Positions 9,720 to 17,523 of a stretch of DNA of 32,372 nucleotides are shown piece after piece. The first letter of the stretch is position 1, and each line of letters opens with the position of its first letter. The notes beneath the pieces are model-generated. The model did no database searches and was not told the DNA's origin. It was given only the letters and a program-made list of their open reading frames with translations. Origin of the DNA: Acidimicrobiia bacterium (lineage in GTDB: Bacteria > Actinomycetota > Acidimicrobiia > IMCC26256 > JAGPDB01); assembly GCA_018057765.1 (NCBI GenBank), contig JAGPDB010000021.1, positions 1-32,372 of the forward strand. Direction: 5' to 3'. The position numbers were made by a program, and so were the translations under genes.

Positions 9720-9819
9720 GTAATTACTCTAGCGTGTAGCTATGCGAATACTATAAGTGCAGGTTAATGGATAAAATGATTAATATTGGTATTAAAGGTA
9801 CATCTGTATTAATATAGAT

Positions 9820-9846
9820 TTGAAATTGGTATCTACAAAGTAGATT
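9820..9846 (+). promoter_or_regulatory. Possible promoter of the leader ORF / GT20 operon
   Basis: A TTGAAA (9820-9825) and a TAGATT (9841-9846) are separated by 15 bases, upstream of a strong ribosome binding site (TAGGAGAA at 9853-9860). The spacing is short, so TTAAAT at 9845-9850 may be the real -10 element. Confidence 0.3.
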
Positions 9847-9865
9847 AAATATTAGGAGAAACACG

Positions 9866-9951
9866 GTGATCCAACCTCAACAAGAGGTTGCGACGACGGT
9901 AACTATCGATTATTCGAACATTATCGGCTCCTCACCGGAGCATGACGCAAC
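9866..9951 (+). ncRNA. Candidate structured leader RNA before the GT20 operon
   Basis: This stretch is visibly richer in G+C than the AT-rich spacer around it and can fold. There is a perfect 7-bp hairpin (9872-9878 with 9884-9890, loop AACAA), a second hairpin (9927-9931 with 9937-9941), and a long-range stem GTTGCG (9887-9892) with CGCAAC (9946-9951). The long stem uses part of the first hairpin's 3' arm, so the two are mutually exclusive, as in attenuators and riboswitches. I do not recognise a known riboswitch class. The same bases also form a short open reading frame. Confidence 0.35.
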
Positions 9952-10003
9952 TAGTAGTATTTTTATAATTTATAACAGTCCATGTGTAATGGCGAGATTT
10001 TAA
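9866..10003 (+). CDS. 45-residue leader ORF, possible small protein
   Basis: The short open frame starts with GTG at 9866, seven bases after a good AGGAGA ribosome binding site, and runs 45 codons to TAA at 10001-10003. Two bases later comes the ATG (10006) of the GT20 gene, which has no strong ribosome binding site of its own. This is the layout expected for translational coupling. The product begins MIQPQQEVATTVTIDYSNII and ends PCVMARF; it has no membrane segment or motif I recognise. It could be a real small protein, a regulatory leader peptide, or an accidental frame across a structured RNA. Confidence 0.4.
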   Translation: MIQPQQEVATTVTIDYSNIIGSSPEHDATSSIFIIYNSPCVMARF

Positions 10004-10005
10004 TT

Positions 10006-11907
10006 ATGGGATTATCATCTATTCAAAAAGTTGCCGACAAACCTACAGTTTTCGTAGTAATTCACGCTCCGATTAAAAAGAACGGATCTAATGGCTGGGG
10101 AACAGCACTATATGGTTCATATTATGATCTAGTCGAAAGTGGAGAAGTAGACAGAGTCATAGTCTTATCTGCACCTCAAGATCAAGCAAATATCCCAGAT
10201 AGAGATACGAATGTAATCTATAGACAAGTTGATTGTGATAGATCAACATTTACTAATTCTAAAGCCCCTGCTACAGATGTTTATATTTGGGATTTGGTGC
10301 ATTTAATGAGAGAACGTGATACTAGCCCATTGGTTAGTAATGCATTTAAAAATGCGCCAGCAAAATATTATGAAGCTTGGAAGAATTTCTTTTTATATTC
10401 AATTGCCACTGCAACGACAGCTTTAGAAGAAGGTGCCAAAGTTAATAATCCTATCTTTCATTTAAATGATCCTCATGATTGTTTTGTTAGTGCTCTATTT
10501 GAAGGCAATTATGATCCTGAATTTATAAGTCAAATAATTGGTGCAGAAAATAGAGATGAATTGATGCGATTTGAGACTATAAAATCTGTATTTTTAGAAA
10601 AAAATAAATCAATAAAACACAGCCGTTTTTGGCATATTCCTGCAATAGATATTGAATCATTTGATGAGTGGTTTGTACAAGACCCAAAAATGGCAGCACA
10701 CTTATTTTCGTCAGTTTTTTCATCTCCATTAAATGTGCACTCTTTAATATGGAAAAAGCCATTTGATGAATTGTTTAAAAAATATGTAGATTTAGTAAAG
10801 GATATAATACCTTCAGCAAATAGAAGCTCATTAGATAAAGGTGTTGGAGTAGGACCGATTGCTTATGATCCAGGTTCATTTATTAAACGGTTTGAAGAAT
10901 ATGATCAAAGTGGTGAGCTCAGAGAAACACTACCTATCCTTGAGGAATGGTCTAATCAAATAGTACAGAGTGTTGGTTCTGATAGCGATGGAAAGAAACT
11001 TGAACCATTCGTAGTATTTTTAACCTGTAGGGGTGATGACCCTAAAGCTAATTTGATAGACACTGTCAAATCGATTATAGCGTCAGTTCAAAATGATCCG
11101 GAAATGGCAAAAAGATTAGTATTGGTAGCCGCATTTAATTCAAGCAGGGTTTTTGAAGATGAGTTGTATCAAAGAACTTTAGATGGTTTCAAATTAGAAA
11201 TAGCCAAACTGGCTAAATTAATAGGAACTGATAGGATTATCTGTGCTGAGTCTTTACCCGCTATTGAAAAAGGTATAGCAACTGATAACTTAGATCAAGC
11301 AGTTGAACTTTCAGCACAACAACATAGAGACGCTCTTATTGATTTAGTTGGTCAAGATGTTGCAGAGTGCTTTACCCTTTTGCCAAATCGTGGAAGTAAT
11401 ATGCCTCATCAGACCGCAGGGTTTATATTAGCTAATGCATTTATTTGTGCATCTCGTGGTGGTTTTGATGTTGTGGCTTTAGAGGCTTCTATAGTTGGAA
11501 AATTAAAACAGCAAGGTACTTTAGCAAAAGAATATCTCAAAGTTTTAGATGACCACAATATGCGTCATGATGTATTCCGTTTGATAATAGCTAATACAGC
11601 TGGATCTGCAAGCTATTTAAAAAAGATCATGCCAGACAATTGTACTTTGATTAATAGTGATGATGATCGAATGCCAACTGCTGAAAGAATTTATTTTGCG
11701 TTGCTTGAAGCTTATGATTTAACTATTCTTGGTGACTCAGTATTAAAACCCGAGACTGATGTTATTGGTGCTCTAGGAGAAGTCTGTGGTTCTGATTGTG
11801 TTACCCAATGGACTGATAATGCTGTTAATGGTTATCCACAAGATCATCCTCGAACATTTGAAAGTTATCTTAGAGCGAACCAACAGGTACCGGCTGTTAG
11901 ACTATAA
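10006..11907 (+). CDS. Divergent GT20-type glycosyltransferase (trehalose-6-phosphate synthase-like)
   Basis: Probably joins a nucleotide-activated sugar to a sugar-phosphate, as OtsA or glucosylglycerol-phosphate synthase do. The GT-B landmarks appear in GT20 order: NGWGTALYGSYYDL near the N-terminus, HLNDPHD (152-158, matching the HDYHL box), FWHIP (H210), and the phosphate-binding pair in CRGDDPKAN (R342, K347) with the same five-residue spacing as OtsA R262/K267. GGFDVVALE (E493) stands in place of the DGMNLVAKE loop. About 633 residues is longer than OtsA (about 470). I start it at ATG 10006 because of the coupled upstream ORF; ATG 9982 would add 8 residues. The phosphatase gene begins directly after its stop. 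The acceptor sugar cannot be told. Confidence 0.72.
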   Translation: MGLSSIQKVADKPTVFVVIHAPIKKNGSNGWGTALYGSYYDLVESGEVDRVIVLSAPQDQANIPDRDTNVIYRQVDCDRSTFTNSKAPATDVYIWDLVHLMRERDTSPLVSNAFKNAPAKYYEAWKNFFLYSIATATTALEEGAKVNNPIFHLNDPHDCFVSALFEGNYDPEFISQIIGAENRDELMRFETIKSVFLEKNKSIKHSRFWHIPAIDIESFDEWFVQDPKMAAHLFSSVFSSPLNVHSLIWKKPFDELFKKYVDLVKDIIPSANRSSLDKGVGVGPIAYDPGSFIKRFEEYDQSGELRETLPILEEWSNQIVQSVGSDSDGKKLEPFVVFLTCRGDDPKANLIDTVKSIIASVQNDPEMAKRLVLVAAFNSSRVFEDELYQRTLDGFKLEIAKLAKLIGTDRIICAESLPAIEKGIATDNLDQAVELSAQQHRDALIDLVGQDVAECFTLLPNRGSNMPHQTAGFILANAFICASRGGFDVVALEASIVGKLKQQGTLAKEYLKVLDDHNMRHDVFRLIIANTAGSASYLKKIMPDNCTLINSDDDRMPTAERIYFALLEAYDLTILGDSVLKPETDVIGALGEVCGSDCVTQWTDNAVNGYPQDHPRTFESYLRANQQVPAVRL

Positions 11908-12933
11908 ATGGAAATCGATTTTTTAAACATTCCGTTTGAAAATGATGCTCATATTATCTTTGACAATGATGGTGTACTTTCTTCTTTAATTCCTGATTGG
12001 AATACGTCTAGTCCCAATGAAAAGACTTTGCGAGGAATAAAAGCTATCTTGAGAAAAAATCCACGATCAAAGGTATCTGTTTTAACTGGACGTTTGACTA
12101 CTTTTCTTAATTCGAGAATAGGCTTCCAGTCCCTTATTAATACGTACCCTGATCAAGTAACATTTTATGGCTTCTACGGAAATCAAAAATATAACCCTAT
12201 AACTGATCCTGAACACAGTGTTATAGAAAAGTTAGATGAGTATAAAGAACTAATTCCAAAACTTCTTAGCCTTTTAGAGCAAGGCTTAGACGAGATACTT
12301 ACTGAATTAAATAAAATTAGTTTAAATGGTGAAAGTCCAATGAATATAGATCTACTCAAACAACTTGTAATCGAAGATAAAGCATTTGGTTTAGGAATTC
12401 ATATTCGTCATCTATTGAATCATATGGGATTAATTAATAAAGATAATAGTGATCAGGAAATCGAAAATAGAAATAAAGTTATTAAACTTGTAAATGATGT
12501 TGTTAGTGAAATAGTAGCTGCTCTAAATTTTGCTAACCCTACCTTACCTTTTAAAATAAAATCTGGCTCTTTGATTAGCGAAATATTCCCAGCTTCTGGT
12601 ATTAACGATGACAAAGTTGAAAGGTTTCTACAAATATATAATGATCACTTACAAAGAAATGATTGCCCTATAATTTACTATTTTGGTGATGATCTTGGTG
12701 ATGCAAAAATTAATAATTTTTGTTATTCGAATCGAGATAATAATTATGCTCCAAAAACAGTGTTTATATTTGTCGATTCTTCGCCAGATGATTATGACCC
12801 AACTCGAGTGCGAATGCGTGAACAAGCAGATTTTGTTGTTTCGCCTAATGATCTACACAATGCAACTGAAGTTTTATCAAATATAATCGTACACAAGGCA
12901 AGTTTAGCTATTTCTCATGGAATAGAAATATGA
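11908..12933 (+). CDS. HAD-superfamily sugar phosphatase (trehalose-6-phosphatase-like)
   Basis: Probably removes the phosphate from the product of the preceding GT20 enzyme. The HAD motifs are present: motif I FDNDGV (D19, D21), motif II SVLTGR, a motif III lysine in the FKIKSGSL or DDKVERF region, and motif IV FGDDLGD (D261, D262, D265), resembling the GDDxTD of OtsB. A helical insertion at about residues 105-215 makes it longer (341 residues) than typical OtsB (about 260). The ATG follows the GT20 stop with no gap. The pairing of synthase and phosphatase supports a phosphorylated disaccharide or glucosyl-polyol intermediate; which one is inference. Confidence 0.72.
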   Translation: MEIDFLNIPFENDAHIIFDNDGVLSSLIPDWNTSSPNEKTLRGIKAILRKNPRSKVSVLTGRLTTFLNSRIGFQSLINTYPDQVTFYGFYGNQKYNPITDPEHSVIEKLDEYKELIPKLLSLLEQGLDEILTELNKISLNGESPMNIDLLKQLVIEDKAFGLGIHIRHLLNHMGLINKDNSDQEIENRNKVIKLVNDVVSEIVAALNFANPTLPFKIKSGSLISEIFPASGINDDKVERFLQIYNDHLQRNDCPIIYYFGDDLGDAKINNFCYSNRDNNYAPKTVFIFVDSSPDDYDPTRVRMREQADFVVSPNDLHNATEVLSNIIVHKASLAISHGIEI

Positions 12934-13106
12934 TATTAACAATAATTGTAAACTAATTATATACGATATAGGAGGCTAATGATCAAAATGCTAGTGTGGT
13001 AAATCTGTTGATAAGGACTAGTAATATATATAGACAATTAATTCGAAAGTGCAATATCCAACATATTTAAATAAAAATAAAAAATGTTTTCAAATATTTT
13101 TTATCT
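12934..13106 (+). promoter_or_regulatory. Spacer before the GH15 gene with mini-ORF and putative -10
   Basis: This 173-base AT-rich spacer contains an isolated AGGAGG (12970-12975). It is followed by a seven-codon frame, ATG 12979 to TAA 13000-13002 (MIKMLVW), with spacing that is too short for efficient initiation. The GH15 ATG at 13107 has no ribosome binding site. TATTTT at 13095-13100 lies 6 bases before it and could be the -10 of a leaderless transcript. The phosphatase and hydrolase may therefore be separate units. Confidence 0.35.
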
Positions 13107-14930
13107 ATGAAAGCAAATAAAGTGAATACATATCCAGAAATAAAAGATTGCTCTCTACTAAGCGACAATCGAACTATTGCAATAGTCGAACCTAACTGTT
13201 CTATCTCATGGATGTGCGCTCCACGTGCAGATTCTGCACCGATATTTGCACATTTGGTTGACACGGAAAATGAATCTAGTAAGGCCGGTGTTTTTGCGAT
13301 TTCTGATATCACTGGTGATAATCCACGTCAAAGTTATGTTGGTGACACTATGGTATTGCGGAGTCATTTTTCTTCATTTCATGTTACTGACTATTTAGAT
13401 GTATCTCGAGGTAGAACAAAACATCAAGCTGGACGTACAGATTTAATCCGTGTAATTGAAGGCTCAGGCGTAGCCAAAGTTGTATTTGCCCCTCGTTTAA
13501 ACTTCGGTCGATCATTAACAAAACTGATACCTAAAGATAGAGGTCTTATTGTTAAAGGCGGAAATGACTTAATGTCACTACGCTCGCCAAAGATTTTCTG
13601 GGATATCAAAGAAGAAGATGGTAGCGATACAGCTGTCTGTGAAATTGATTTAGATTCAATGGGCGGACGAGTAAAACTTGAACTTCGTTGCGGAACTGCA
13701 AATATTACAGCAGATGTTATTTCTGAACCAGAACGACGTAGTGCAACTTTATTGTATTGGCAAAAATGGGTGGACAAATTATCTATACCTAAACTCGCAA
13801 CCGATGAAGTTAAACGTTCTGCAGTAACGCTAAAAGCACTTTGTTATAGACCAACTGGTGCGATATTAGCTGCTGCAACAATGTCAATGCCAGAGGAAAT
13901 TGGTGGGTCAAGAAACTGGGATTATAGATATTGTTGGTTAAGAGATGCATCTCTTTCTGCAGCATCGCTTGTGCGTGTTGGTAGTTATTCAGAAGCAATG
14001 TCATTTTTAGATTGGTTACTTGATGTTGTTGAGATGAGAGACGGTGCCGAAAATCTACAGCCTCTATATAACGTAAATGGAAAGCATCTTGCTCCAGAAG
14101 CAGAGATTACACAACTGAGCGGATTTAGAGGTTCTAGTCCTGTCCGTATAAATAATGGAGCTGATTCTCAAGTGCAACTTGATGTTTTTGGCCCCATTGT
14201 TGATCTAATTCATTTATTAGCAATTCGTGGTGAAGGTTTAGCAACGAAGCATTGGGAGTTGGTCAATCAGCTAGTTAATGCTGTAAAACTCCGATGGAAA
14301 GAAGTCGATTGTGGTATTTGGGAAGTGCGTAGCGCGCCACGTCACTACACGTATACAAAATTGATGTGTTGGGTGGCAGTGGAACGTGCAATTGAGCTTG
14401 CTGATCACTTTACAGGCGAAGTCGATGAAGAATGGGTTGTATTAAAAGACGAAATTGCAGAGTCAATAAATAGTAATTCCTATAAAAGTGAAATGAATGC
14501 CTATACCTCAGCATATGATGAAACAGATATTGATGCTTCAGTATTGGCACTTGGACTATACGGGTTTATTCAAATGGATGATCCTCGTTTTGTAGGTACA
14601 ATTAAAGCTGTTGAAGATCATTTATTAATAAATAATACTGTTTTTCGCTATATATTAGATAGTGGTAACGAGGATGGTATTGAAGGCCATGAAGGAGGAT
14701 GGAATATTCTCACATTGTGGTTAATTAAATGCTATTGGGCTTCTGGTCGTTTAGATGACGCACGAAAACTCTTTCAAATTGTTAGAAAAAATATTGGTGC
14801 TACAGGACTTATCTCTGAACAAGTAGATCCTATAACTCTTGAATCTTTAGGGAATCACCCGCAAGCATATTCACATTTGGCATACATCGATACAGTAATT
14901 GCAATGGCTGCGGGAGCAGATTTAGATTAA
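13107..14930 (+). CDS. GH15-family glycoside hydrolase (trehalase/glucoamylase type)
   Basis: Hydrolyses terminal alpha-linked glucose. In Actinobacteria, proteins of this architecture include the mycobacterial GH15 trehalase. The N-terminal beta-sandwich domain (1-230: YPEIKDCSLLSDNRTIAIV, ISWMCAPRADSAPIF) precedes the (alpha/alpha)6 barrel. The barrel has GGSRNWDYRYCWLRDAS near residue 268, YTYTKLMCWVAVERAIELA, DIDASVLALGLYGF, GHEGGWNILTLWLI, and GLISEQVDPITLESLGNHPQAYSHLA with the acidic catalytic region. The 607-residue length is normal and no secretion signal is seen, so it is cytoplasmic. Beside a GT20/phosphatase pair, trehalose is a plausible substrate, giving a make-and-break cycle. 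Substrate is inference. Confidence 0.85.
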   Translation: MKANKVNTYPEIKDCSLLSDNRTIAIVEPNCSISWMCAPRADSAPIFAHLVDTENESSKAGVFAISDITGDNPRQSYVGDTMVLRSHFSSFHVTDYLDVSRGRTKHQAGRTDLIRVIEGSGVAKVVFAPRLNFGRSLTKLIPKDRGLIVKGGNDLMSLRSPKIFWDIKEEDGSDTAVCEIDLDSMGGRVKLELRCGTANITADVISEPERRSATLLYWQKWVDKLSIPKLATDEVKRSAVTLKALCYRPTGAILAAATMSMPEEIGGSRNWDYRYCWLRDASLSAASLVRVGSYSEAMSFLDWLLDVVEMRDGAENLQPLYNVNGKHLAPEAEITQLSGFRGSSPVRINNGADSQVQLDVFGPIVDLIHLLAIRGEGLATKHWELVNQLVNAVKLRWKEVDCGIWEVRSAPRHYTYTKLMCWVAVERAIELADHFTGEVDEEWVVLKDEIAESINSNSYKSEMNAYTSAYDETDIDASVLALGLYGFIQMDDPRFVGTIKAVEDHLLINNTVFRYILDSGNEDGIEGHEGGWNILTLWLIKCYWASGRLDDARKLFQIVRKNIGATGLISEQVDPITLESLGNHPQAYSHLAYIDTVIAMAAGADLD

Positions 14931-15005
14931 TACAATAAATATTAAAAAATTCAATAAATTCTGATTAGGTATAGATTTGAACTTATGGGCCCTTTTATGT
15001 AAGAT

Positions 15006-15896
15006 ATGAAAAAAGATTTTGGTTTAAAGGGAAGTAGCAGCAAAATGAATAAACATAAAACCAAACCAGATCTTCAGCTCTCGCTCGAGGAAGAACTAAA
15101 TCGATTTTTCAAAATCAATGCTAAAAGACATATTGCGCAAGCTAAATTTGACGCCAAGCCAAAGCATTATTCTATACCGAACCGTTTAATTAAATTAGCT
15201 GCAACTTTGAGTGCTTTTGTTGGTATAGGTTTGCTAAGGTTTGGCTACGCGCCAGTGGCTGCAACACAAGGTATTAGTTATGTAGCTGGAGGTTTACTAC
15301 AAATTGGCGCAGCATTAACTGGATTCAAATATGCATTTGCCGATAAATTTCGCGTTGCGAATCTACAGAAACTAAATTTCAAAACAGAACTTGCAAGACA
15401 GTACACTTTTACTAGCTTAGGTAGAACTAATGTAGAATCTTTTTTAAATGCATTAATTAAATTAAATTCAACTGCATTAATACGACTTAAATTTGATAAT
15501 AACCTCACAAATAGACAAAAGAAAAAAGTTGTTATAGCGTTCCAAAATATTGACGATGCTTTAGTACACATGGCAGGTTTACATATTTCAAAAGAGATTG
15601 ATCTAGAAAAACTACTATCTTTCCAAAAGAAAATGGAAACTTTAGCTCATGAAAGTATAAGTCATAATATTATAGAGATAGCAGACAATAGTCGTAGCAT
15701 TATTCGATCTATTGCGAAAATCCGTATAGGTCAAGTAGGAGAACCAAGCGACAAAGAAGTACCTCTAGCAGCTGACACTTTAGAATCAACATCAATTGAA
15801 CCACCTGACTTAACAGTACAGGCGAATACCCCTGGGTCAGCTCAGGTAGAAGAGATTACACATGATAAACCGTCAAATTTTGGTCATGGACTCTAA
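15006..15896 (+). CDS. Unrecognised two-TM protein with cytoplasmic helical domain
   Basis: I do not recognise a family. The 296-residue product has a basic, polar N-terminus (1-57), two hydrophobic helices at about 61-80 and 84-108 joined by a short turn (a hairpin in the membrane), and a charged helical stretch (115-245) containing RQKKKVVIAFQNIDDALVHMA. The last 50 residues are acidic and Pro/Ser/Thr-rich. The start is uncertain: ATG 15006 lacks a good ribosome binding site, while ATG 15045 (MNKHKTKPD) has AAGGGA some distance upstream. It stands alone between the GH15 gene and the ROK kinase, both on the same strand. Confidence 0.7.
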   Translation: MKKDFGLKGSSSKMNKHKTKPDLQLSLEEELNRFFKINAKRHIAQAKFDAKPKHYSIPNRLIKLAATLSAFVGIGLLRFGYAPVAATQGISYVAGGLLQIGAALTGFKYAFADKFRVANLQKLNFKTELARQYTFTSLGRTNVESFLNALIKLNSTALIRLKFDNNLTNRQKKKVVIAFQNIDDALVHMAGLHISKEIDLEKLLSFQKKMETLAHESISHNIIEIADNSRSIIRSIAKIRIGQVGEPSDKEVPLAADTLESTSIEPPDLTVQANTPGSAQVEEITHDKPSNFGHGL

Positions 15897-15927
15897 GATA
15901 ATAATATTCAACAGGTGAAGTATTATC
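15897..15927 (+). terminator. Weak hairpin after the two-TM protein gene
   Basis: GATAATA (15897-15903) and TATTATC (15921-15927) can pair directly after the stop codon, with a 17-base loop. The stem is AT-only and lacks a T-run, so it is at best a weak terminator. Confidence 0.25.
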
Positions 15928-16027
15928 ATTTAAATCTATTAATGTAGTGACACCTAAATTCATACCGATTAGGTATTCTTATCAGCTCATCATTAGAATC
16001 TAAATACATTTTAATAGGGGAATTTTT

Positions 16028-16909
16028 ATGCGAAAATTAATACTAGGAATAGATATGGGTGGTACGAAAACTGCTGCTGGTATTTTTGAATATGATGGTG
16101 AACTATTATCCAAAGAAGTATTAATAAATCCTAAAACTGATGATGCAGAAGAAGTTTGGAATGGGATTACTGATCTTATAGATAAAGTATCGGCACCTTA
16201 TATTGATGAAATTATTGTTTGTGGTGTTGGAGCAGCAGGTCCAGGCGAGCCAAAAGGTAAATCGTTATCTCCAGCTAATCTTCCAGCATGGAAAAAGTTT
16301 CCTTTGCGTGAACGCTTAGAAGCACATATAGGAAAAACAGCTTATATAGAGGATGATTGTAAAGCATTGGCTATGGGTGAAGGTTGGAAAGGCAGTGCTG
16401 TTGGCAAAAATAACTATATCTCTATGGTTGTTTCAACTGGTATAGGCGGAGGCATAGTTCTAGATGGCAAACTCCTTCACGGTCATGGAATGATGGCTGG
16501 ACACGTTGGTCATATTATTATCAACCCTAATGGTCCTCTATGTGGTTGTGGACAATTTGGTTGTATCGAAGCTCATGCTTCAGGGCCGGCCTTATTGCGA
16601 AAATTCGGTATAGCTCCTGAGAAAGCTACATTGGAAATGAAAGAATATTGTGCTGATATGATTGCACATTTAATATGCATTGTGACAGCAACATTAGATA
16701 TTAATTGGGTAACTATTGGAGGTTCAGTCGCACTAGGTTTCGGTGATGTATTTTTTAATCGTGCACAAGAAACTTATGACAAGATGATGCAAATGGATTT
16801 TGGCAAAGGACTAAAAATCGTACCTTCAGGTTTAGGTATAGACGGTGGGCTAATTAGTGCAGCAAGAGTCGGTAAATTGGGCTATAGAGGGATACTTTGG
16901 AGCTCTTAG
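16028..16909 (+). CDS. ROK-family sugar kinase (glucokinase-like)
   Basis: Probably phosphorylates glucose or a related hexose with ATP. The 293-residue protein shows the ROK plan: the N-terminal phosphate loop GIDMGGTKTAAGIF, ANLPAWKKFPL, the catalytic aspartate in YIEDDCKALAMGE, the second loop VSTGIGGGIVLDGKL, and the ROK zinc signature GHVGHIIINPNGPLCGCGQFGCIEAHASG split over about residues 158-185. The ATG at 16028 has an AGGGG ribosome binding site. A ROK glucokinase near GH15 and GT20 genes would feed released glucose into glucose-6-phosphate. True glucokinase versus another sugar specificity is not certain. Confidence 0.87.
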   Translation: MRKLILGIDMGGTKTAAGIFEYDGELLSKEVLINPKTDDAEEVWNGITDLIDKVSAPYIDEIIVCGVGAAGPGEPKGKSLSPANLPAWKKFPLRERLEAHIGKTAYIEDDCKALAMGEGWKGSAVGKNNYISMVVSTGIGGGIVLDGKLLHGHGMMAGHVGHIIINPNGPLCGCGQFGCIEAHASGPALLRKFGIAPEKATLEMKEYCADMIAHLICIVTATLDINWVTIGGSVALGFGDVFFNRAQETYDKMMQMDFGKGLKIVPSGLGIDGGLISAARVGKLGYRGILWSS

Positions 16910-16947
16910 CTAATATCTTGAGTTTAAATTCTTCAATTAACTAAGAT

Positions 16948-17523
16948 ATGTATGTGAATAAAATAATTGGAAAGAATATTTTTTTAAGACCTTTAATTTT
17001 TTCTGATTATAATAACTATTTTGAAGTTAAAACAAGATGTCACGATTGGCTAAGTAAATGGGAGCCAACATTTAACGGAACTTTCCAGGATAGTATTTCT
17101 ACACCAGCTCTATTCGCAGGTCGTATTGAAGCTTTTGAAAGAGGAATAGCACAAGATAACTATTATGGACTAGGAATATTTCTACATAATTCTACTTTTA
17201 TTGGTGAAGTGACAATAGGAAATATTGAACGAGGCCCTTTCCAATGCGCAAAGTTGGGATATTGGATTGATGAAAAGTATGCCGGAAGATCTTATACACC
17301 ACAAGCTGTAAAATTAGTTATGGATTATGCATTTAGTGATCTAGATTTTAAAAGAATTGAAGTAGCTATTGTCCCTAGGAATAAACCAAGCGTAAGAGTC
17401 GTTGAAAAATTAGGTTTTGAATTTGAAGGTATATCAAGGGAATATATTGAAGTTAATGCTGTGCGCGAGGACCACAATCGTTATGCCATGACAAAAAGTC
17501 AATATTTATTGTTGAATCAGTAA
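16948..17523 (+). CDS. GNAT-family N-acetyltransferase (RimJ/RimL-like)
   Basis: Acetyl-CoA-dependent acetyltransferase of the RimJ/RimL type, acting on protein N-termini or small amines. The 191-residue protein begins with the usual NIFLRPLIFSDYNNYFE beta-alpha unit. It has GEVTIGNIERGPFQCAKLGYWIDEKYAGRSY (beta4 and the acetyl-CoA pyrophosphate loop, seen as two shorter motifs), and ends with VVEKLGFEFEGISREYIEVN and DHNRYAMTKSQY, all characteristic of the family. It follows the ROK gene by 38 bases. The last 7 bases overlap the 3' end of the convergent proS gene. The substrate cannot be inferred. Confidence 0.88.
   Translation: MYVNKIIGKNIFLRPLIFSDYNNYFEVKTRCHDWLSKWEPTFNGTFQDSISTPALFAGRIEAFERGIAQDNYYGLGIFLHNSTFIGEVTIGNIERGPFQCAKLGYWIDEKYAGRSYTPQAVKLVMDYAFSDLDFKRIEVAIVPRNKPSVRVVEKLGFEFEGISREYIEVNAVREDHNRYAMTKSQYLLLNQ

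Follow-up and report, generated by a model that had tools for sequence, protein, structure and literature searches.

In the repY-repZ system of IncI-alpha/IncB plasmids, a translated leader ORF with an overlapping start is combined with a long-range pseudoknot. Protein-binding translational operators are known to enclose a start codon in a pseudoknot, and for ribosomal protein S15 diverse translational regulators have reportedly been described. SAM-II and preQ1 are start-masking metabolite riboswitches, in which aptamer and expression platform overlap.

In M. tuberculosis, expression of PPE2 requires translation of uPPE2, a leader ORF that is controlled by a riboswitch (PMC11260477). The stop codon of uPPE2 overlaps the start of PPE2, PPE2 lacks a Shine-Dalgarno sequence of its own and it is translated mostly by termination-reinitiation (PMC11260477). 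The ppe2 aptamer is large, resembles the class-IIb B12 aptamers and is located upstream of the uPPE2 ORF (PMC11260477).

Here, we analyzed a stretch of 32,372 nucleotides from an Acidimicrobiia bacterium (the window), in which a short leader ORF precedes a sugar operon. We consider it probable (about 0.6), as judged from sequence comparison within the genus, that positions 9831-10008 constitute a genus-restricted, cis-acting bistable translational switch, which acts on a leader ORF coupled to this operon.

Leader ORF, its junction and the sugar operon

When we re-read the sequence, we found AGGAGA at 9854-9859 and GTG at 9866-9868, as reported in a preliminary description of this DNA, and translation confirmed 45 open codons after the GTG (VIQPQQEVATTVTIDYSNIIGSSPEHDATSSIFIIYNSPCVMARF). 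The TAA at 10001-10003 is followed by two bases and the ATG at 10006-10008, as also reported there, and the statement that this ATG lacks a good ribosome binding site is fair when judged by eye. The leader ORF is the bearer of the sole good ribosome binding site. Related loci were identified by synteny, with orn, the divergent neighbour, and the GH15 gene further downstream as anchors; both are present in the relatives G002 and G001. Our comparison thus involves the window and the two other genomes of the genus that were examined. The coding features are as follows:

9854-9859, + strand: Shine-Dalgarno sequence AGGAGA of the leader ORF (AGGAG common to all three species)
9866-10003, + strand: leader ORF of 45 codons (57 codons in G002, 53 in G001; same frame across the core)
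10001-10008, + strand: stop/start junction TAA-TT-ATG (TAATG in G002, TTATGA in G001)
10006-11907, + strand: first operon gene, very divergent GT20 (trehalose-phosphate-synthase-like); ATG 9982 is an alternative start
11908-12933, + strand: second operon gene, which encodes a divergent HAD protein of the trehalose-phosphatase-like kind
9982-17523 of the window, L017 2974-17435 and L018 3223-11868: variable sugar locus

Loss of the stems and of the reading frame among related genomes had been named as an outcome that would refute the leader element, but both were kept in the relatives and the finding survived. The element is present as one copy per genome in 3/3 examined genomes of the genus, between the divergent orn and the sugar operon. 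Counted along the first sequence of the three-leader alignment, 53 of the 98 core positions (~54%) were invariant, compared with about 24% on either side (approximately 39/161 upstream and 15/66 in the tail). The leader had been described as less AT-rich and, indeed, the GC content of the core is 0.50 vs 0.355 for the window. In the relatives, the core is GC-rich as well (58-61% GC within regions of 40-47%) and therefore this patch probably represents conserved sequence that withstood a drift to AT.

The leader frame is open to its end in all three species and, as in uPPE2, its stop codon overlaps or abuts the next start, also in the relatives. Relative to the next ATG the stop is located at -5, -2 and +1, which corresponds to an overlap or a distance of at most 5 nt. 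The joint frequency of an open frame and of stop/start proximity in all three species was 0.0016 in shuffled tails, but this statistic was chosen post hoc and, with the frame set, the ATGA overlap of G001 follows in part automatically. Folding of the start region of the downstream gene was unremarkable (z-scores of -1.0, 0.7 and -0.6 in the three species) and we therefore do not claim masking of the downstream start.

The designation of the operon as divergent GT20 holds via an intermediate: the protein encoded by the first gene matched no Pfam or NCBIfam family and did not reach the PF00982 cutoff, but a G002 protein matches PF00982 (E 3e-10), and in a direct comparison with two proteins the window protein shares 23.5% identity with it (E 5e-9). 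Similarly, the second gene product shares 27% identity with the trehalose-phosphatase of G002, which matches PF02358 (E 7e-16). On these alignments, the first operon gene is a genuine, extremely divergent GT20. When we searched 395 class and 396 phylum genomes with the GT20 protein, only the window's own genome matched, and no relatives were found in viral contigs, plasmids, phages or the other collections tried. For the GT20/phosphatase pair (10006-12933) there was no relative in about 850 related genomes, so that the G002 pair is its sole link to the family.

Between orn and the ROK/GNAT/GH15 genes, the three species carry a variable locus of sugar metabolism, each with its own set of front genes (3 to 13 kb). 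In G002, the locus includes a GT2-type glycosyltransferase, galT, a galactokinase-epimerase fusion, a galE-like gene, a nucleotidyltransferase and GH13, as well as GT20, trehalose-phosphatase, ROK and GNAT genes. The G001 locus comprises two mannitol dehydrogenases, HAD, ROK, DUF4432 and GNAT genes. Common to the three species are ROK, GNAT and GH15, and the front genes have been exchanged. The order of GH15 vs ROK/GNAT is also altered among the three species. A 296-aa protein encoded in the operon (window 15006-15896) had neither a Pfam/NCBIfam match nor an obvious counterpart at the loci of the relatives.

For the occurrence of the element elsewhere, a covariance model was employed. The genus members scored 81-103 bits and nothing credible was detected in 58 order, 395 class and 396 phylum genomes. 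The matches outside the genus (at most 34 bits) were treated as chance on the basis of those inspected, and most of them involved a broken P2 or P3 helix. Among the matches for which the genomic context was read, the two strongest lie over long ORFs, which by eye are cyclase-like and penicillin-binding-protein-like. A pattern scan of an 84,980-species collection returned the two relatives and one Gordonia match (L052), which scored 13.6 bits with the covariance model and was rejected as chance. The plasmid collection did not contain a match, and blastn matches to Serratia phages were trivial (26 nt at E 0.5). The earlier statement that no described RNA class fits this leader was corroborated by Rfam 15: there was no match at the gathering threshold, and at low threshold the best E-value was 3.1, for unrelated families. 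At the gathering threshold, a scan of the window detected only a tRNA, and a match to the cobalamin (B12) riboswitch family was absent. Since the element is single-copy, there is no regulon that would hint at a signal.

Upstream of the leader, both relatives carry a TGTGCAGAAA-like word (L017 2690-2706; L018 2972-2985), which is partly shared by the window as AGTGCAGG (9755-9768). This word may possibly be a promoter or operator. A simple scan did not reveal any convincing shared promoter.

Folding of the leader and selection on RNA and peptide

The preliminary description had noticed a perfect 7-bp hairpin and a competing long-range stem, and both were recovered: CAACCTC (9872-9878) and GAGGTTG (9884-9890) enclose an AACAA loop, and GTTGCG (9887-9892) pairs with CGCAAC (9946-9951). 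Three additional hairpins (9831-9845, 9897-9926, 9927-9941) and the complementarity between the loop of the last one and the start codon had been missed. Together, the folded RNA involves the following elements:

9831-9845, + strand: upstream hairpin ATCTAC-AAA-GTAGAT, directly 5' of the Shine-Dalgarno sequence
9865-9869, + strand: RGUGA including the GUG start codon, 5' side of the predicted loop/start pseudoknot with 9932-9936
9872-9890, + strand: hairpin P0, the alternative to P1, which uses 9887-9890, a strand shared with P1
9887-9892, + strand: 5' strand of P1 (GUUGCG), structure counted on the alignment
9897-9926, + strand: hairpin P2, in which CGGUAA (9897-9902) pairs with UUAUCG (9921-9926), from the alignment
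9927-9941, + strand: hairpin P3 (GCUCC-UCACC-GGAGC) with an invariant stem; its loop (9932-9936) is complementary to 9865-9869
9946-9951, + strand: 3' strand of P1 (CGCAAC), which closes the three-way junction P1/P2/P3

Compared with dinucleotide shuffles, folding z-scores of -2.9 (window), -2.1 and -2.2 (the two relatives) were obtained for the leader. For the three-species pseudoknotted structure, 98.4% of the alignment cells were paired vs 31-56% when the partners were slid by 1-3 columns. Two-sided changes were observed in three pairs, one each in the pseudoknot, in P1 (U-A to C-G in G001) and in P2 (A-U to U-A in the window). In P2, three more pairs were changed on one side, and all of them are still paired. 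The P3 loop UCACY is complementary to RGUGA, the leader ORF's own start, and it covaries with the base before GUG: this base and the last loop base form G-C in two species and A-U in G002. The RGTGA motif is unique within each of the three leaders. A fully paired loop without linker would be sterically tight and perhaps only four of these pairs form. We also observed that AGGAG of the Shine-Dalgarno sequence could pair with CUCCU of P3; both are invariant, and this pairing is incompatible with the loop/start pairing.

P0 also exhibits a two-sided change, which falls on a middle-strand base that is used by P1 as well. The three P0/P1 strands are CAAC:GTTG:CAAC in two species but CGAC:GTCG:CGAC in G001, and thus the base that can pair in either alternative changed along with both of its partners. 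Forcing P0 or P1 yielded ensembles that differed by 2.2 kcal/mol in the window, 0.3 kcal/mol in G002 and 0.8 kcal/mol in G001, and the RNA is thus nearly bistable in all three. The covariation is based on three sequences of one genus with one compensatory pair per helix, and its total score was reached by 14 of 500 shuffles. In both relatives, a hairpin of unrelated sequence occupies the place of the upstream hairpin 5' of the Shine-Dalgarno sequence. Equally good folding was seen in 7.1% (window), 0% (G002) and 3% (G001) of the shuffles, which makes this hairpin weak in the window.

At the junction, GCGACGACG is invariant and largely unpaired (unpaired ACGA), and its synonymous sites are frozen. 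Six four-fold sites (GCG ACG ACG, GGC TCC TCA) are identical in 3/3 species, compared with 39 of 308 (12.7%) in orn, GH15, ROK and GNAT; two more four-fold sites of the core, in a Val codon and a later Thr codon, vary. For the core, a dN of 0.30 and a dS of 0.46 were calculated (G002 vs G001), which corresponds to a dN/dS of about 0.65. The core indels (6 and 9 nt) preserve the frame. Little purifying selection was seen on the leader peptide, in which VATT and GSSxE are shared and the C-terminal half is unconserved. Taken together, the frozen four-fold sites, the dN/dS ratio and the unconserved C-terminal half indicate that selection acts mainly on the RNA, and the peptide residues are shared because the RNA is frozen. 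With its weak purifying selection and unconserved C-terminal half, the leader peptide probably serves as a relay rather than as a small protein with a function of its own.

Proposed switch, its signal and competing explanations

At the sequence level, the leader is characterized by conserved helices, covarying loop/start complementarity, mutually exclusive P0 and P1, a kept frame and stop/start proximity. We propose that P0 would form early in transcription and leave the Shine-Dalgarno sequence and the GUG free (ON fold). In the OFF fold, P1 would capture the 3' strand of P0 and close the three-way junction P1/P2/P3, and the P3 loop UCACY would pair with RGUGA and bury the GUG. The choice between the two folds may depend on a signal or on the ribosome traffic through the ORF, which would melt P1-P3. 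Ribosomes would finish the leader ORF at the ATG of the first gene, or within 5 nt of it, and reinitiate there, so that control of the leader GUG would mean control of the whole operon. We infer repression by the loop/start pairing, coupling through termination-reinitiation and the binding of a ligand or protein at the invariant GCGACGACG junction. From the leader to the first gene, no intrinsic terminator was detected on the + strand in the window or in either relative, which favours control at the level of translation over attenuation of transcription.

Control of the operon by this element, perhaps via an osmotic or sugar signal, had been suggested in the preliminary description. The conserved cis-regulatory leader, the coupled small ORF and the competing stems stand, but an osmotic or GT20-specific signal is not supported: in G002 this element precedes a GT2/gal operon, and in G001 it precedes a mannitol-dehydrogenase operon. 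As the first genes differ among the species, the signal is expected to be common to the ROK/GNAT/GH15 core or to reflect sugar status rather than the GT20 product, and it is probably not GT20-specific.

A conserved structured mRNA leader with mutually exclusive folds, as expected of riboswitches as a kind, was found here in three species only. A specific form of the switch reading, which we consider possible but tentative, is a ligand-binding riboswitch of an undescribed class, in which the ACGA three-way junction would be an aptamer for a sugar, a sugar phosphate or a nucleotide and binding would fix P1 and the pseudoknot. The invariant, largely unpaired junction with its frozen synonymous sites, the bistable P0/P1 pair and the sugar-gene context in 3/3 species are consistent with this proposal. 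However, the element is restricted to one genus with one copy per genome and differing first genes, and the invariance could equally serve a protein or the fold alone. Slightly more speculative is the notion of a new riboswitch class, whose aptamer would hold the start codon of its own leader ORF and be overrun by it; the ligand would close the junction, the apical loop would capture the GUG, the relay to the sugar operon would proceed solely via termination-reinitiation, and the leader would have stayed while the first genes were exchanged.

Alternatively, a protein might trap the pseudoknot at the leader start, as in a translational operator of the S15-leader type. The position of the start codon within the pseudoknot, as in such operators, and the invariant P3 hairpin would fit, but we recognized no RNA-binding family among the operon proteins scanned and the genome does not contain a second site to mimic; we consider this explanation unlikely.

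The bistable translational switch is also preferred over leader-peptide attenuation or stalling, in which codons or peptide would respond to an amino acid or a drug and thereby release the start downstream. The translatable leader ORF with its competing stems and the shared VATT and GSSxE residues would be expected in this case. However, the leader peptides of the three species share no run of regulatory codons, a + strand terminator is absent, and the dN/dS of about 0.65, the unconserved C-terminal half and the frozen RNA, which accounts for the shared residues, render this mechanism improbable. Marginally less credible is that the element is a small RNA acting in trans, or an exchange site for sugar cassettes in the DNA, and merely happens to be located before the operon. 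Although the downstream gene content differs in the three species and there is a single copy per genome, the compensatory changes and the position of the Shine-Dalgarno sequence and GUG point to an mRNA, there is no terminator after the element and no integrase or transposase was noticed among the junction ORFs. A conserved small protein gene with incidental RNA structure, which would explain the frame open in three species and its good ribosome binding site, is very improbable because the synonymous sites are the best-conserved part, the pairs covary, purifying selection is weak and there is no Pfam family.

If the bistable switch on the leader ORF is real, it would add a cis-regulatory RNA that has not been described before to those of uncultured actinobacteria, and the phylum would have a second, independent example of operon control by a structured leader via a relay ORF. 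It would also be a regulator that stayed in place while the first genes under its control were exchanged, and it would point to a short ORF with its end at an ATG as a general route for a regulatory RNA to enclose its own start codon.

Comparison with known systems

The nearest functional analogue is, by analogy of architecture, the riboswitch/uPPE2 relay of M. tuberculosis ppe2. Both are actinobacterial and combine a structured leader with a short ORF that stops at the start of a gene without good ribosome binding site. Unlike the ppe2 aptamer, the RNA described here is about 90-125 nt long, unrelated and located mostly inside the ORF, and its loop shows complementarity to the start codon of the leader itself. 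With repY-repZ of IncI-alpha/IncB, the element shares a translated leader ORF, the overlap or proximity of the starts and a long-range pseudoknot, which is predicted here; however, the repY-repZ pseudoknot activates the downstream gene and responds to an antisense RNA, whereas the pairing predicted here covers the leader's own start. As in the S15 operators, a pseudoknot including the start region would control initiation, but there is no ribosomal-protein gene downstream and a relay ORF is added. The predicted capture of the initiation region by a loop pseudoknot resembles the start-masking riboswitches SAM-II and preQ1; in contrast to these, the element has no Rfam match and the start that would be masked belongs to the relay ORF.
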